The position numbers were made by a program, and so were the translations under genes. Below, one piece after another: positions 17,889 to 24,723 of a stretch of 64,000 bases of DNA (within the stretch, counting starts at the first letter, position 1; the number at the start of each line of letters is the position of its first letter). The stretch lies in assembly GCF_030389965.1 (NCBI RefSeq), contig NZ_CP128399.1, positions 2,888,799 to 2,952,798 on the forward strand, in the 5' to 3' direction. The DNA is from Candidatus Chlorohelix allophototropha (GTDB lineage Bacteria; Chloroflexota; Chloroflexia; Chloroheliales; Chloroheliaceae). Below the pieces are notes generated by a model. It saw only the letters and a list, made by a program, of their open reading frames with translations. It was not told where the DNA came from and did no database searches.

Positions 17889-19649
17889 ATGAGCCAAAAC
17901 TCGGGATATAACCAGAGTAAAGATAATGCGTCCTCCCTTACAAACGTGGCGAAATTCCTAAAGAAGGATTCGCAGCGCATTCTCAATGAATGGTGGGAGG
18001 CAATAAAAAAAGAATCCCCTTCTTTCGCCGAGTTGGAAAAGTTGCGCAACCCGGAGCTTTACCACGAACAAAGCCTAGAATTAATCATCAAAGCCCTAAT
18101 GGCATATACCCGTAAAGAACAGGATACCCTGCTCGATCAGGTTAACCGGATGGCGCGAGAAATGGCAAGCGAACGATTGCGACAAGGTTTCCAGATGAAG
18201 GATTTACTCATGTCGCTGGCGGTTTTCCGCAGAGCCGTGCTAGACTCGGTACAGCGAATGTTACAAAGTCGCTTGTGGGTAGCCTTTCCTGCCAGTGTAA
18301 TGCAAATGGAGAAACGCATTAACGAAGCTATGGATATTCAAGTAGCCGCGGTAGCGGAGGCGTATATGACAGCACGTGACTCTATTATCCGTCACCGCGA
18401 AGAAACCATGCGGTTTCACAATTATCAGCTTGGTAAGCTAAACGATCTCAGCAATCGTATCGGGCAAACGCTCGATATGGTAAAGGTGATGAATTCAGCA
18501 GCGGCAGCGCTTTGCGAAATGGCGGAACTTAGCGCCGGAGCGGTGGCTTTGCATGACCAAAAGGCTGGACACCCGCTGGTTCACCCGGATTACGGGCATC
18601 ACGGTTGCACCAATGAAATCATAAACTGGCTCAATTCCTCACTATTTGTAGAAATTAGTGGCGAAATTGTGGAACGAGAGCGTCCGTTGGTGGTAATGAG
18701 CGTGGCAGATGATGCGCGCTTTAGTAATGCAGTAGCTTTCGGAGTTAGCTCGCTGTTGTGTATTCCGCTCAAGTCTGCCGATAAAATCGTAGGGGTGATG
18801 TACGGAGTGGATTATATCGTGCGTGATTTTAGCCCGCATGAAGTAAACCTGTTACTGACCTTTGCCAATCAAGCGGCGCTGGCAATCGAAAATGCGCGCC
18901 TCTATACAGAAGTCCAAATTGCTTATGTGGAGTTAAAAGAATTAGATCGGGTTAAAGACGAGTTTGTAAGCATCGCCAGCCATGAAATCAGAACCCCGCT
19001 TGCGCTCATAAAAGGCTATGCCAGCACCTTGTTACGGGCAGAACAATTAAAGTTGAGTCCAGAAAAAGAGCAACGCTTTATCAACGGTATTGATGAAGCT
19101 TCTAACCGCTTGATTACTCTAATTGATAATCTGCTAAGTGTATCGCGCATCGAATCGGGACGCTTCAGGATTAATCCTCAGCCGGTCAATGCACGCGAAG
19201 CCATTAATCACGCCGTATCAACTTTTCAGGGGCAATTGGGTAATCACGAACTTGAGCTTGATTTGGTACACGATGAAGCCCGCGCACGTTGCAACCGCGA
19301 TCAGTTCGAACAAGTAATTATCAACCTTGTTTCCAATGCCATTAAATATTCTCCAGAGGGCGCAAAAATCAGTATTAGCACGCGCCGAATTGACAATGGC
19401 GAGAAGGTCGAAATCAGGGTTAGCGATCAAGGTTCTGGTATTGCACAAGAACACCTCATGCGCATTTTTGAGAAGTTTTATCGGGTAGAAACAGGTTTAA
19501 CCCGCAAAACGCAGGGAACCGGGCTTGGCTTGTATATTTGCAAAAATATCATTACCAGTTATGGTGGCGAAATTTGGGCGGAAAGCGCTGTAGGACAAGG
19601 CACTACTTTTGTCATCACCCTACAGGTGTGGAAAGTGGATGCAGAGTGA
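17889..19649 (+). CDS. Sensor histidine kinase with GAF domain
   Basis: This 586-residue soluble kinase begins with a helical region (about 10-150) that resembles the RsbR/RsbT co-antagonist N-terminal sensor family. A GAF domain follows at about 185-335. Next are a HisKA box with His365 (IASHEIRTPLALIKGY) and a HATPase domain with N-box (NLVSNAIKYSPEGAK), G1 (DQGSGIA) and G2 (GTGLGLYI). No membrane segment or signal peptide is seen, so it senses a cytoplasmic signal. The receiver gene follows after 120 bases and is its likely partner. It is divergent from the PSD-like gene. Signal unknown. Confidence 0.92.
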   Translation: MSQNSGYNQSKDNASSLTNVAKFLKKDSQRILNEWWEAIKKESPSFAELEKLRNPELYHEQSLELIIKALMAYTRKEQDTLLDQVNRMAREMASERLRQGFQMKDLLMSLAVFRRAVLDSVQRMLQSRLWVAFPASVMQMEKRINEAMDIQVAAVAEAYMTARDSIIRHREETMRFHNYQLGKLNDLSNRIGQTLDMVKVMNSAAAALCEMAELSAGAVALHDQKAGHPLVHPDYGHHGCTNEIINWLNSSLFVEISGEIVERERPLVVMSVADDARFSNAVAFGVSSLLCIPLKSADKIVGVMYGVDYIVRDFSPHEVNLLLTFANQAALAIENARLYTEVQIAYVELKELDRVKDEFVSIASHEIRTPLALIKGYASTLLRAEQLKLSPEKEQRFINGIDEASNRLITLIDNLLSVSRIESGRFRINPQPVNAREAINHAVSTFQGQLGNHELELDLVHDEARARCNRDQFEQVIINLVSNAIKYSPEGAKISISTRRIDNGEKVEIRVSDQGSGIAQEHLMRIFEKFYRVETGLTRKTQGTGLGLYICKNIITSYGGEIWAESAVGQGTTFVITLQVWKVDAE

Positions 19650-19769: not shown

Positions 19770-20222
19770 ATGAATATCGAAACTGCGGGACGCAAGATTC
19801 TGGTTATTGACGACGAACCGGGCATTGTTGATATTGTCGAAACCAATTTGTTGGGTGAAGGATTCGATGTTATATCTGCCAAAGATGGTAAGGAAGGTCT
19901 TGATAAAATCCGCAGCGAGTTTCCTGATCTTGTGATTCTGGACGTGATGATGCCGGAAATGGATGGCTGGCAGGTACTTCGCGAGCTGGAAAAAGAACCG
20001 GATACTGCCGGTATCCCGGTTATTATGTTAACCGCCAAAGCCGCCGATGAAGATTACATTTATGGTTTAGAAGAAGGCGCAGTAGAATATCTGACTAAGC
20101 CCTTCTTCCCACAAGAACTTATCAATCGGATCAAAATCACGTTGATGATACTTAACCCACGTATGCGCGATGAACGAAGGCGCAACCTGATTGCCAAACG
20201 CAAAAAGTTAATGGAGCATTAG
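19770..20222 (+). CDS. Single-domain response regulator (CheY-like)
   Basis: The 150-residue protein is a receiver domain with a short basic tail. The acidic pair is in VIDDEPG, the phosphorylation site is Asp55 in LVILDVMMPEMDGW, the Thr is in IMLTAK and the Lys in YLTKPF. No output domain is present, so it acts by protein contact. It has a good ribosome site (AGGAGTGG) before the ATG. It lies between the histidine kinase and the cyclase/AAA/TPR gene (31-base gap), so all three probably form one signalling unit. The basic C-terminus (RRRNLIAKRKKLM) may mediate binding. Confidence 0.92.
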   Translation: MNIETAGRKILVIDDEPGIVDIVETNLLGEGFDVISAKDGKEGLDKIRSEFPDLVILDVMMPEMDGWQVLRELEKEPDTAGIPVIMLTAKAADEDYIYGLEEGAVEYLTKPFFPQELINRIKITLMILNPRMRDERRRNLIAKRKKLMEH

Positions 20223-20253: not shown

Positions 20254-23200
20254 ATGTTAATTTGTAATTATTGCCGGAACGATAACCCCAATAATGCCAA
20301 CTACTGTGGGCGTTGCGGGAGACGCTTGCGCGACCAGCGCAGCCTTGCCAAGCTCGAAAAAGCCTCGTTTTGCATCGAGTGTGGTAATCGAAGAGAGCGT
20401 TATCCCAACGACCGCCGTATCTGTACCATCCTCTTTGCGGATGTTCACGGCTATACTGCTATGACCGAAAAAATGGACGTGGAAAAGGTTACGAACATCA
20501 TGAATGAGGTGTTCAGTCTCCTTACTGCGGAAATCGTGGGAGTGGATGGCAGTATTGATAAATATGCCGGTGATAACATCATGGCGCGATTTGGTGCGCC
20601 CGAAGCGTTGGAAGATCACCCTGAACGTGCTATTCATGCGGCGCTAGGGATGCAACGCCAACTTTCCCGCTTCAGCCTGAAATTGCAAAAGGAAGAGGGC
20701 GTGGGGCTGGAAATGCGCATCGGCATAAATACAGGTTGGGTTAGCGCTGCCGAAGTGGGCGGTGAAGTAGATGGGGTTAGCTACCGCACCTATACTGTAA
20801 TGGGTGACACGGTAAACCTCTCTTCGCGCCTCGAACATGAATCGCGCGTGGGCAAAATCCTAGTTGGCGAAGAAACATATAAATTGGCAAAACACGCCTT
20901 TGAATTTTTGGATACGGGCGAACGCCAAATTCGAGGCAAGCGTGAGCCAGTTCGTACTTATGAAGTAATCGGACCTAAACCGCAGCGAGCCAATCGGCGC
21001 GGATTAGCCGGAAAAGATTTGCAACTGGTCGGGCGTGAAGCAGAGTTGCAGCGTCTGGCAAGTCGCTTGCTGCAAGCAATAGAGGGCAAAGGTCAGGTTG
21101 TTTCGGTAATGGGCGAGGCAGGCGTAGGTAAGTCCAGCCTCCTACGCGAATTTAAACGGCGCGCCACCATCACCTACCAAGACGTGCGCTATATTTCTGG
21201 CGCAGCTTTCAGCTACTCGTACACCCAGTCGTTTAGTCTTGTGCGCAACGCCATCTTCAAAATGTGCGATATCAACGATAATGATGATGAAGAAACAGTG
21301 CAGGAAAAACTGCTGGCGCAAATTCATCTATTGATGGGCGAAGGCGAACAAAACGAAGACGGCGAGTATGGCGAAATACCCTCTTTACTGGGGCGGGCAG
21401 TTGGTATCAATTTCCCGAATTCCTTCGTAGATAACTTAGATCCCCTATTGCGTAGCCGACTATTGAACGACGCAATCAGCGACTTTCTGCTCAAAAAAGC
21501 CGAGAGCAATTCGCTCCTTATTGTGCTGGATGATTTGCATTGGGCTGATAACAGTAGCCTTGAAGTGCTGGATTTGATGGTACAGAAGGTTACCAGTTCA
21601 AGTAATAATATGTCGGTGCTGCTGTTGCTGGTACATCGTCCTGATTTTAGCAGGCAATGGAACGTGCCAAAAGAGCGCTATGAAGAAATCGCCCTTGAAA
21701 GCCTGAACCCTGAGCAGATAAAAGTTTTAACGCGCCAATTGCTCGATGCCAGCCTAGGCAATATGGATACTCCCATAAACCTTGAGCATGAAGAACCGCC
21801 TGAATTGCCAAGTCCGATGGTCAAAATATTGGAACGCGCCGGTGGTAACCCCTTCTTTGCCGAAGAAATTCTAAAAGCCTTGCTGGATGCACAGCAAATT
21901 GTGCAAGACCCCACCGAAACTGCTAGTTGGAAAATTGTTGGCGATCTTGAAAATTTCAAGTTGCCCGAAACCTTGCAAGAAATTTTGCTGGCGCGGGTAG
22001 ATAAACTGGGTGGACGCGATAAGCGCGTGCTACAGGTTGCCTCTGTTATCGGCTTGCGCTTTGAACAACGCTTGTTACTAGCAACCGAAGACCTATTCGA
22101 TCAGCAAATACAAGTAGAAGAAGCGCTTACCGATTTGCACCAAGAAGATTTTGTATATACCGAGCGGCAGGAACCAGAACCGGAGTATGGCTTCCGGCAC
22201 TCTCTTACCCGTGAGGTGGCTTACAACAATCTTCTAGGTACCGAGCGCCGTCGCTATCATGAGCAGATAGGACGCGCTATCGAGCATTTCAAATCTGACC
22301 GCCTCCATGACTATACCGTAATAGATGACTTAGCCTACCACTATGAAAATAGCGATAGCGATGAAAAAGCGGTGCATTATCTTATGCTAGCAGGACACAT
22401 GCGCAAGACCCTTTACCGCAATGATGAGGCGCTAAAAGCATTCTATGAAGCCCGTGAACGCCTTAAACGCAATCCAGAAGCAGGTGAAGAGCAGCAACTG
22501 GTCGAAATAAACAGCAATATCGGTGACATTCGCGCCTTGAAAGCGGATTACAGCGAGGCGCTTCAAGCATATGAGGCAGCGCTGGAAAAATCTGCTAACC
22601 CGTTTGAGCGCATAGACCTAAGGGTAAGAATAATTGAAGTCTTGGGCAAACGTGGCGAGTTTGAGGAAGCCGCGCGGAGTTTTGAAATTGCCCAGAGGGA
22701 AATCCAAGAAGCATCCGGCGCACCTGACCCAGAAAACCGCCTGACACACCTTCGCGCCAAGTTATTACTCCAGATAGGCTGGATTTATTATCTGCAAGGC
22801 AAGCATGAAGCAGCCCTTCGCGTAAACGAAGAAAGCTTGCAAGCTCTCAAATCCTTGCCCGATACTGACCGTGACGTACAGGTTGAAACCGGTAGAGCTT
22901 ACAATATGCTTGGTACAATCTTTAGCGATATTGGGCAACTGGATCAAGCCGAAGTTAATTTGCAACGCGCCATCGAAATGCACCAGCGCGCCTCTAATAT
23001 CCAACAGGTAGCGCGGGTTTACACAAACCTTGCGGTAGTAATGATTCTGATTGGAAACCTGACCCAAGCAACCAACTACTTGAAACAGGCACGGGCGAAT
23101 GCTGAAAAGGTCGGCGATGTGGAAACCCTCGGCGGCATTATCGGCAATCTGGGTTTTGTAGCTGAACGTCAGGGGCAATTGGTAGCCGCCTTTAAATATT

Positions 23201-23940
23201 TCCAAGATGCTTGGCGCATCTTTGAACGCGCCGCCAATCAGGTATTGGCAGCAATGGCGCTCCAGAACTGCGGGCGTGTAGTTTTACAGCAGGGAAATGT
23301 GAAAAACGCGCTGGAATATTTCCAGCAAAGCTTGAAAATGGCAGAGAGTATAGGCGCAACCTCGATACTGGCGGAGGGCAGCAACAACATCGGCTGGGCG
23401 CTCATCATTGACCAGCGTTTAGCAGAAGCCGAAGAGTGGCTCGAACGCGCCTATGTCAAGGGAATGGAAAGCGCCAACCCTGAAGTGTTGGCTAATAATT
23501 ACATGTATCGGGGTATGCTAGAGTTGGAAACCCACAACTACATCAAATGTAGCGAATACTTTGATGAGTGTCTCAAGATAATCGAGGGGCAATTGGGCGA
23601 CCCGGTTATGCTAGGACAGATTAAACGGCGCATGGGCAGATTGGCTTCCAACCAACACAAATTCAAGGAAGCCGAGCAATACTACAATGAAAGTCTTGAA
23701 ACGCTCGACCCGATGCGCGCCTATCTAGAAATGTGCTACACTAAATTCTATTGGGCAGAACTTATACTCCACGAATTATCGGAAGGGCTAATCGAACCTG
23801 AACGCCAGCAGGAAGAAATCGAAAAAGCGCAGCGTTTCTTGATGCAAGCCAGTTTTACATTCGATGCTTGCGAAGCCCGCCCGGCTTACAATGGGGCGAT
23901 ACTTCTATTGGAACAATTTGAGCAAACGGCACCCGTGTGA
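20254..23940 (+). CDS. Class III adenylate/guanylate cyclase fused to AAA ATPase and TPR repeats
   Basis: This 1228-residue protein starts with a zinc ribbon (Cys4, 7, 18, 21; second pair Cys40, 43). A class III cyclase catalytic domain follows (about 55-240) with both metal Asp residues, Asp63 in FADVHGYT and Asp107 in KYAGDNIMARFG, and the transition-state pair Asn188/Arg192 in GDTVNLSSRLE. The AAA domain (about 255-560) has P-loop GEAGVGKSS (287-295) and Walker B LLIVLDDLHWAD. The C-terminal half is a long run of TPR repeats. All catalytic residues look intact, so it should make cyclic nucleotide under control of ATPase/TPR sensing. It follows the kinase and receiver genes. Confidence 0.92.
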   Translation: MLICNYCRNDNPNNANYCGRCGRRLRDQRSLAKLEKASFCIECGNRRERYPNDRRICTILFADVHGYTAMTEKMDVEKVTNIMNEVFSLLTAEIVGVDGSIDKYAGDNIMARFGAPEALEDHPERAIHAALGMQRQLSRFSLKLQKEEGVGLEMRIGINTGWVSAAEVGGEVDGVSYRTYTVMGDTVNLSSRLEHESRVGKILVGEETYKLAKHAFEFLDTGERQIRGKREPVRTYEVIGPKPQRANRRGLAGKDLQLVGREAELQRLASRLLQAIEGKGQVVSVMGEAGVGKSSLLREFKRRATITYQDVRYISGAAFSYSYTQSFSLVRNAIFKMCDINDNDDEETVQEKLLAQIHLLMGEGEQNEDGEYGEIPSLLGRAVGINFPNSFVDNLDPLLRSRLLNDAISDFLLKKAESNSLLIVLDDLHWADNSSLEVLDLMVQKVTSSSNNMSVLLLLVHRPDFSRQWNVPKERYEEIALESLNPEQIKVLTRQLLDASLGNMDTPINLEHEEPPELPSPMVKILERAGGNPFFAEEILKALLDAQQIVQDPTETASWKIVGDLENFKLPETLQEILLARVDKLGGRDKRVLQVASVIGLRFEQRLLLATEDLFDQQIQVEEALTDLHQEDFVYTERQEPEPEYGFRHSLTREVAYNNLLGTERRRYHEQIGRAIEHFKSDRLHDYTVIDDLAYHYENSDSDEKAVHYLMLAGHMRKTLYRNDEALKAFYEARERLKRNPEAGEEQQLVEINSNIGDIRALKADYSEALQAYEAALEKSANPFERIDLRVRIIEVLGKRGEFEEAARSFEIAQREIQEASGAPDPENRLTHLRAKLLLQIGWIYYLQGKHEAALRVNEESLQALKSLPDTDRDVQVETGRAYNMLGTIFSDIGQLDQAEVNLQRAIEMHQRASNIQQVARVYTNLAVVMILIGNLTQATNYLKQARANAEKVGDVETLGGIIGNLGFVAERQGQLVAAFKYFQDAWRIFERAANQVLAAMALQNCGRVVLQQGNVKNALEYFQQSLKMAESIGATSILAEGSNNIGWALIIDQRLAEAEEWLERAYVKGMESANPEVLANNYMYRGMLELETHNYIKCSEYFDECLKIIEGQLGDPVMLGQIKRRMGRLASNQHKFKEAEQYYNESLETLDPMRAYLEMCYTKFYWAELILHELSEGLIEPERQQEEIEKAQRFLMQASFTFDACEARPAYNGAILLLEQFEQTAPV

Positions 23941-24052: not shown

Positions 24053-24274
24053 ATGTCGATGGAATCGATGAGAGCAGTAGTAGCAAGGGCAAATAACGAT
24101 AAAGAGTTCTTACGCCGCTTGCTGGTAAATCCTGAAGAAGCGGTAAAAGTGGCAGGCTATGATCTATCGCAAGAAGAAATAGATATGCTCAAAGCCAGTC
24201 GCGGAAATACCAAATTTAATGATGAAGAACTCGAAAAGCGGGTAAGCTACGGTTTCTTCAGGCTTGGACCATAA
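24053..24274 (+). CDS. NHLP-clan (RiPP leader-like) small protein, copy 1
   Basis: The protein has 73 residues. I chose the ATG at 24053 because a strong ribosome site (GGAAGGGAGG) precedes it and because it then aligns end to end with copy 2. The pattern ARANNDKEFLRRLL.NPEEAVK.AGYDLSQEE resembles the leader part of Os1348/Franean1_4349-type precursors (helix, DPxF-LLxDPxxAL, then a Glu-rich helix). The last part, ELEKRVSYGFFRLGP, would be the core or a conserved tail. No cysteine, and only a few Ser/Thr, are available for modification. No modifying enzyme is next to it. The family resemblance is from pattern only, so the RiPP role is uncertain. Confidence 0.6.
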   Translation: MSMESMRAVVARANNDKEFLRRLLVNPEEAVKVAGYDLSQEEIDMLKASRGNTKFNDEELEKRVSYGFFRLGP

Positions 24275-24447
24275 ATAGTATTTATAATAATATTTAATAT
24301 AAAACGGACAGGAAGTATTTAATTGCCCTTAGCTGTAATAAGAAGAATTTATATCCACAAAACGCATCAAAAGGTGTTAAAATAAATTTAGTGAGTATTG
24401 GGCGCAATATTCCACATAGTTTGGGGAGTAAATGAAAGGGGTCAATT

Positions 24448-24669
24448 ATGTCTATCGAAGCGATGAAAGCGGTGATAGCGCGCGCGAATAATGATAAAGA
24501 TTTCCTGCGCCTGTTACTGTCTAACCCGGATAGCGCTATCAAAGCCGGTGGCTATGATCTGACTGAGCAAGAAGTCGAAATGATTAAAGCCAGCCAAGGA
24601 CAAGCCCGACTTAACGATGAAGAATTGGAAAAGCGAGTCAGTCGTGGTTTCTTTCGCCTAGGTCCGTAG
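24448..24669 (+). CDS. NHLP-clan (RiPP leader-like) small protein, copy 2
   Basis: This 73-residue paralogue of the preceding gene is identical at 49 of 73 positions with no gaps. The strongest conservation is at ARANNDK, the GYDL segment, NDEELEKRVS and the last six residues, FFRLGP. The ribosome site AAAGGGG lies six bases before the ATG at 24448. A 173-base AT-rich gap separates the copies, so each may have its own promoter. A strong terminator follows. Conservation of the extreme C-terminus argues that it is functional in both copies. Whether the tail is cleaved and modified or is part of a regulatory protein is unknown. Confidence 0.62.
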   Translation: MSIEAMKAVIARANNDKDFLRLLLSNPDSAIKAGGYDLTEQEVEMIKASQGQARLNDEELEKRVSRGFFRLGP

Positions 24670-24694: not shown

Positions 24695-24723
24695 GGACGG
24701 GCGCATAACCCGTCCTTTTTTTA
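24695..24723 (+). terminator. Rho-independent terminator after the NHLP-like pair, possibly bidirectional
   Basis: A 7-bp stem GGACGGG/CCCGTCC with a 7-base loop is followed by eight T residues. On the minus strand the same stem is followed by GAATTTTTT, so it may also end the HerA transcript that stops at 24721. Confidence 0.9.

Follow-up and report, generated by a model that had tools for sequence, protein, structure and literature searches.

Os1348-family small proteins are recurrently encoded beside STAND-type cyclase-AAA-TPR proteins in Chloroflexia and may act as their regulatory partners

Background

The closest described counterpart of the proteins studied here is PosA of the Os1348 cluster of Pseudomonas sp. 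Os17 (NF038399, PDB 6lk7), which shares with them a leader-type domain of the same family and a short C-terminal tail that follows the helical domain. The Os1348 protein is encoded together with GNAT, HExxH and nitroreductase/MNIO enzymes, and its conserved end (QQQQ-ARMD) is hydroxylated and cleaved by the HExxH enzyme (PMC12636437). A related N-terminal domain occurs in the NHLP/proteusin and Nif11 leaders, and automatic annotation and genome mining place the proteins described below in this clan of RiPP precursors. Small genes that adjoin the gene of a TPR protein and encode a conserved C-terminal end are also a feature of the RRNPP systems (Rap-Phr, PlcR-PapR), which are recognised by a TPR receptor of 250–500 aa, a secreted propeptide and a Firmicute host (PMC10075063). 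The STAND ATPases, among them MalT and cyclase-AAA-TPR proteins, resemble the larger protein of the locus described here in having an AAA_16 domain and a TPR sensor, with some matches to TPR_MalT. MalT is tuned by sugar and by unrelated proteins. In the open-licence papers that we searched, we found neither a leader-fold partner reported for a STAND ATPase such as MalT nor a description of an Os1348-family protein paired with a cyclase-AAA-TPR protein.

Here, we analysed a window of 64,000 nucleotides from Candidatus Chlorohelix allophototropha (contig NZ_CP128399.1, positions 2,888,799 to 2,952,798) that contains two tandem genes for such small proteins. The closed genome of Candidatus Chlorohelix allophototropha L227-S17 has been published (PMC10972752), and the source assembly comprises five contigs of 6.09 Mb in total, including contigs of 2.96 and 2.45 Mb. 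Neither the protein family nor the cyclase architecture is new in itself; the new element is their pairing. Should the small proteins prove to regulate cyclases as their partners, some of the RiPP precursors predicted in Chloroflexota would be mis-filed, the leader fold would have a role beyond peptide maturation, and the signal controlling STAND-type cyclase-TPR proteins could be tested with a 73-residue protein and a six-residue tail.

Results and discussion

The two small genes lie on the forward strand at 24053..24274 (copy 1, C-terminus SYGFFRLGP) and 24448..24669 (copy 2, C-terminus SRGFFRLGP). An earlier note made from the sequence alone had described them as 73-residue proteins with 49 identical positions and a common end, and our ORF check and alignment confirm two same-strand frames of 73 aa that are identical at 49 of 73 positions (67%) without gaps and share the final six residues FFRLGP (24254..24271 and 24649..24666, both +), a putative docking motif proposed from sequence and lineage conservation. 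They are the only two proteins above the family cut-off genome-wide. Synonymous sites are near saturation between the copies (pS 0.75), and the final 11 codons carry nine synonymous and three non-synonymous changes. Since the copies differ at essentially every synonymous site in this stretch, selection, rather than a recent duplication, accounts for the shared end.

The resemblance to Os1348-type leaders that the note had recognised is borne out by NF038399 (Os1348 family NHLP clan protein), against which the copies score 49.8 and 43.6 bits (curated cut-off 40) and the cyclase-paired homologues 44–89 bits. A profile of 13 homologues searched against the PDB matched nitrile hydratase alpha chains and, with an E of 8e-9, the crystal structure of Os1348 (6lk7); further PDB profile matches to engineered TPR and SAKe proteins were rejected as repeat artefacts, the TPR one amounting to about 3–5 bits per stretch. 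The proposed Franean1_4349-type likeness holds as a relationship but not as membership, with 38.6 and 36.5 bits (E 1e-9 and 6e-9) against PF14407 (Frankia_peptide; gathering cut-off 48). Among the other leader models, both copies fall below the curated cut-offs of the NHLP leader TIGR03793 (22–24 bits, cut-off 50.9) and the Nif11 leader TIGR03798 (about 30 bits, cut-off 32.3), and they further differ from NHLP/proteusin and Nif11 leaders in having no double-glycine just before the tail and a tail that is constant within lineages. An AlphaFold2 model of moderate confidence (pLDDT 67.5, tail below 50) is all-helical with a disordered tail; a fold search with this model gave no significant match, the best being the NMR structure of an NHLP precursor (8tb1, E 2.7). 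Membership in the Os1348 domain family is a separate question from that of RiPP-precursor status.

The small genes stand at the end of a same-strand run (+) that is opened by a sensor histidine kinase with RsbRD_N-GAF-HisKA-HATPase domains (17889..19649), followed by a single-domain response regulator (Pfam Response_reg, 19770..20222) and the proposed partner, a 1228-aa protein in which a zinc ribbon, a class III nucleotide cyclase, a STAND-type AAA_16 domain and TPRs follow one another (20254..23940). Pfam searches bear out the neighbours named in the note, i.e., the cyclase/AAA/TPR gene upstream and a convergent HerA (DUF87) ATPase gene downstream, and add the kinase and the response regulator, which were absent from it. 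A terminator-like hairpin with a T-run at 24695..24715 could serve the small-protein gene as well as the HerA gene that converges on it; it comes from a consensus scan only, which found two such elements where 1.1 were expected. The order kinase, regulator, cyclase and small gene recurs in the window's family in G001 and G003, both of which have the histidine kinase gene upstream of the cyclase, and partly in G002 and G004; the response-regulator cluster is present in G001, G002 and G003. The partner protein has the metal-binding Asp motifs FADV and AGDN, the MGDTVN..R motif and the Walker A motif GEAGVGKS, and with its cyclase domain, AAA_16 domain with Walker A and TPR sensor it classifies as a class III cyclase linked to a STAND ATPase.

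A profile search of 400 Chloroflexota genomes gave matches in 100, and we examined the surroundings of 74 loci. A homologue of the small gene lies beside a same-strand gene for a Guanylate_cyc-AAA_16-TPR protein in 30 Chloroflexia genomes other than that of the window. Four of these 30 loci belong to the window's family (f1), 18 to a Chloroflexaceae-type family (f6, with named records from Chloroflexus, Oscillochloris, Viridilinea and Chloroploca), seven to a Roseiflexus-type family (f10, with named records from Roseiflexus) and one to f5, and the small gene is downstream of the cyclase in all but one (G008). A scan with an f6/f10 alignment profile recovered 29 named loci, nearly all from Chloroflexia, and a scan of genome contigs with the window protein gave no match. 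In the Chloroflexaceae and Roseiflexaceae, the ATG of the small gene lies 0–5 nt past the cyclase stop codon in 13 of 25 f6/f10 loci, and several have a GGAG Shine-Dalgarno sequence inside the cyclase gene.

Not every cyclase of this architecture has a small gene beside it. The window genome has three cyclase-AAA-TPR genes, of which only the one in the window has a small partner, and no small homologue was found at the sites of other cyclase-AAA-TPR paralogues in G039, G047 and G015, a control that rests on genome-wide match positions (its locus-flank version is incomplete where the flank stops short of the end of the gene, and misses even the known pair of G039). By a rough estimate, chance would place a small gene directly downstream of one of three such genes in a 6 Mb genome about once in a thousand cases or less. 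The pairing of the small proteins with the cyclase-AAA-TPR protein is well supported. The other genes that recur near the paired loci are unremarkable, such as those for an isopropylmalate-type dehydrogenase, a ribonucleotide reductase small chain and a HEAT-repeat protein. AAA-TPR-BTAD regulators (L094, L121) were considered as a third pairing and set aside as loose, with an intervening gene in L094 and a gap of 466 nt in L121.

The note had left two readings side by side, a RiPP precursor modified in trans and a regulatory family built on the leader fold, and the second is now the better supported because the cyclase/AAA/TPR partner recurs. We propose, with the scales about level, that the small proteins are unmodified intracellular regulatory partners of the STAND-type cyclase that dock via their C-terminal tail. 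The helical leader-type domain of about 60 residues would fold and expose a short free tail, tail and domain would together bind the STAND ATPase at its TPR sensor, and the bound small protein would set whether the N-terminal cyclase is active, acting inside the cell and without being modified. Physical binding, the tail as docking site, the direction of regulation and the absence of modification are the parts of this proposal that we infer. Several points speak against it: operon partners need not touch; the gap between cyclase and small gene is about 95–230 nt in the window's family, and two other genes lie between them in G002; an intact small gene occurs without the cyclase in one genome (G055, see below); and among characterised proteins the nearest relative, Os1348/PosA, is a RiPP precursor that undergoes modification and has a conserved tail (PMC12636437).

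The partner cyclases fall into two lineages. In f1 and G008 they combine a zinc ribbon with a single cyclase domain; in f6 and f10 the cyclase domain is doubled, and typically the metal-binding motif is found in the first and the MGDAVN..R motif in the second. Two cyclase domains also occur in the window genome's unpaired paralogues, one of which (L129) is more similar to the f10 partner than is the partner encoded in the window (458 vs 307 bits); in the tree, the unpaired double-cyclase paralogues group nearer the f6/f10 partner lineage. A tree in which all paired cyclases are constrained to one clade is worse by 25 log units (p-AU 0.021); two separate pairings are favoured accordingly, although this comes from long-branched trees and a single p of 0.02. 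The likely reading of the sequence comparisons is that the pairing arose twice independently or that the partner was exchanged, and a single origin is disfavoured; the small-protein tree is poorly resolved and cannot settle the number of origins.

These lineages bear on the simplest alternative, namely that the two genes have only been inherited together, co-transcribed for expression control, while the small protein acts on something else. Vertical descent explains much of the repetition within f6 and f10, but the involvement of two cyclase lineages and the near-overlap of cyclase and small genes are not what this alternative would lead one to expect, and the genus Chloroploca (g33) provides evidence on both sides. 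In G298 the small gene is intact and the partner cyclase, 59% identical to the f6 query, is still present. In G055 and G291, which are closer to each other than to G298 at a flanking gene, the partner cyclase has been lost and only paralogues of 33–38% identity remain; probably one deletion event led to different outcomes in the two genomes. In G291, two TAG codons and a 24-nt deletion have turned the small gene into a pseudogene, a decay that, judged from these sequences, is in keeping with dependence on the cyclase. G055 retains an intact small gene despite the loss, as shared inheritance alone would allow, with a pN/pS of 0.17 that rests on only five changes. Weighing both, we regard co-inheritance without a functional partnership as unlikely. 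As a separate observation in this genus, only 14 nt separate the small gene from the start of a nitroreductase-family gene (L077:7699-8367, L080:7782-8450), an arrangement not seen in other genera.

The tail is nearly constant within lineages and differs between them: (F/W)FR(L/I/V)GP in f1, (R/K)GF(I/F/V/L) in most f6 (e.g., KGFI or RGFF in Chloroflexaceae) and GTGLM in most f10 (Roseiflexus). With pN/pS values of 0.19–0.29 for the last 11 codons and 0.11–0.23 for the whole protein, it is under purifying selection and slightly less constrained than the domain. The note had contrasted the constant end with the variable cores of RiPPs; the constancy is real, but it does not suffice as an argument against a RiPP and does not exclude modification, because the modified tail of PosA is conserved as well.

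A competing reading is a RiPP precursor whose leader domain would call in a maturase encoded elsewhere; the tail would become the product, and the cyclase would only regulate the pathway. This reading can draw on the founder of the Os1348 family, a modified precursor, on one clear C39 peptidase and three radical-SAM SPASM matches above cut-off elsewhere in the window genome, and on relatives within the phylum that adjoin real RiPP enzymes. The last are likely genuine RiPP loci, with a B12-binding radical-SAM protein (L118) or an MNIO of the MbnB/TglH/ChrH type (L105) beside Os1348-family proteins. The window pair differs from Os1348 in its cyclase-AAA-TPR neighbour and in having no GNAT, HExxH, nitroreductase or MNIO enzyme adjacent, and the absence of a modifying enzyme next to the genes, as first noted, extends to 31 cyclase-paired homologues, beside which none was identified in gene maps and clustered neighbours, with Pfam applied to the recurrent neighbours and not to every ORF. 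No YcaO, LanC-like or HExxH maturase was detected in the window genome, where a check that covered these three classes, C39 peptidases and SPASM proteins returned the last two, and the tails FFRLGP, RGFI and TGLM are without Cys. Modification in trans is accordingly unsupported, and we think a RiPP precursor improbable here.

Beyond the cyclase-paired set, 44 further loci of the wider family were read, of which 16 have a cNMP-binding protein within 3 kb; these 16 come mostly from one family (f42) and hence are not independent. In 13 of the 16 this is a long protein with an HExxH motif and two or three cNMP-binding domains (L088, L091, L093, L095-L097, L099, L101, L104, L107, L108, L115 and L126; mostly f42), and the four long proteins scanned with Pfam have two cNMP_binding domains and a Peptidase_M50 domain. 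By domain content, they are possibly cyclic-nucleotide-gated site-2-type proteases that act on leader-type proteins. Together with the cyclase pairing, the cNMP loci suggest a recurring tie of Os1348-family proteins to cyclic nucleotides. That leader-fold small proteins in the Chloroflexota are protein or peptide ligands of STAND-type cyclases with a cyclic-nucleotide output, for which the cNMP-M50 proteases form a read-out or release arm, is a generalisation that we put forward as a distinctly speculative one.

A further reading of the pair is a peptide-signalling circuit: once set free, the tail would be recognised by the TPRs of the cyclase protein, as in RRNPP systems but with a cyclase as output, and a cNMP-gated M50 protease may carry out the release in other Chloroflexota. 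A TPR protein that adjoins the small gene, the conserved C-terminal end and the cNMP-binding proteins of the wider family would all suit such a circuit. The 1228-aa partner, with its cyclase and AAA domains, is far from the receptor size of RRNPP systems, the host is not a Firmicute, no Sec-type signal or hydrophobic N-terminus is evident by inspection, and neither an exporter nor a protease lies beside the pair; the cNMP-M50 context was seen in other families, again mostly f42. We give a released peptide signal little credence, and the intracellular regulatory partner remains the reading that we prefer.

The wider family has several further arrangements. In L110 (6504-6689, -; genome G417), an Os1348-like domain appears to form the C-terminal end of a formate-dehydrogenase-like molybdopterin oxidoreductase through an in-frame fusion, with a second, stand-alone copy 5 kb away and a frame of similar length in G287; here the leader fold may serve as an enzyme appendage. 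Of the other long open frames around homologues that resembled fusions, at least one (L090) is a high-GC open frame. A second paralogue subfamily from Chloroflexaceae and Herpetosiphon-type genomes (L032, L039, L122, L124, L127) starts with FERLIGRAV or DLERLIGRAV, has mostly Trp-containing ends and lies directly upstream of a c11-cluster gene, which encodes a SpoIIE-type phosphatase in the one case scanned; L039 has three tandem copies. Near-constant Trp-rich ends (AWIPWQW, AWVPWR, AWIPWLR) characterise another subfamily (f51 and f52; L100, L106, L114, L120, L123), and in G101 (L117:1461-17472, +) six mostly tandem genes combine an Os1348-like N-terminal domain with very long low-complexity tails rich in Gly, Ala and Asp.
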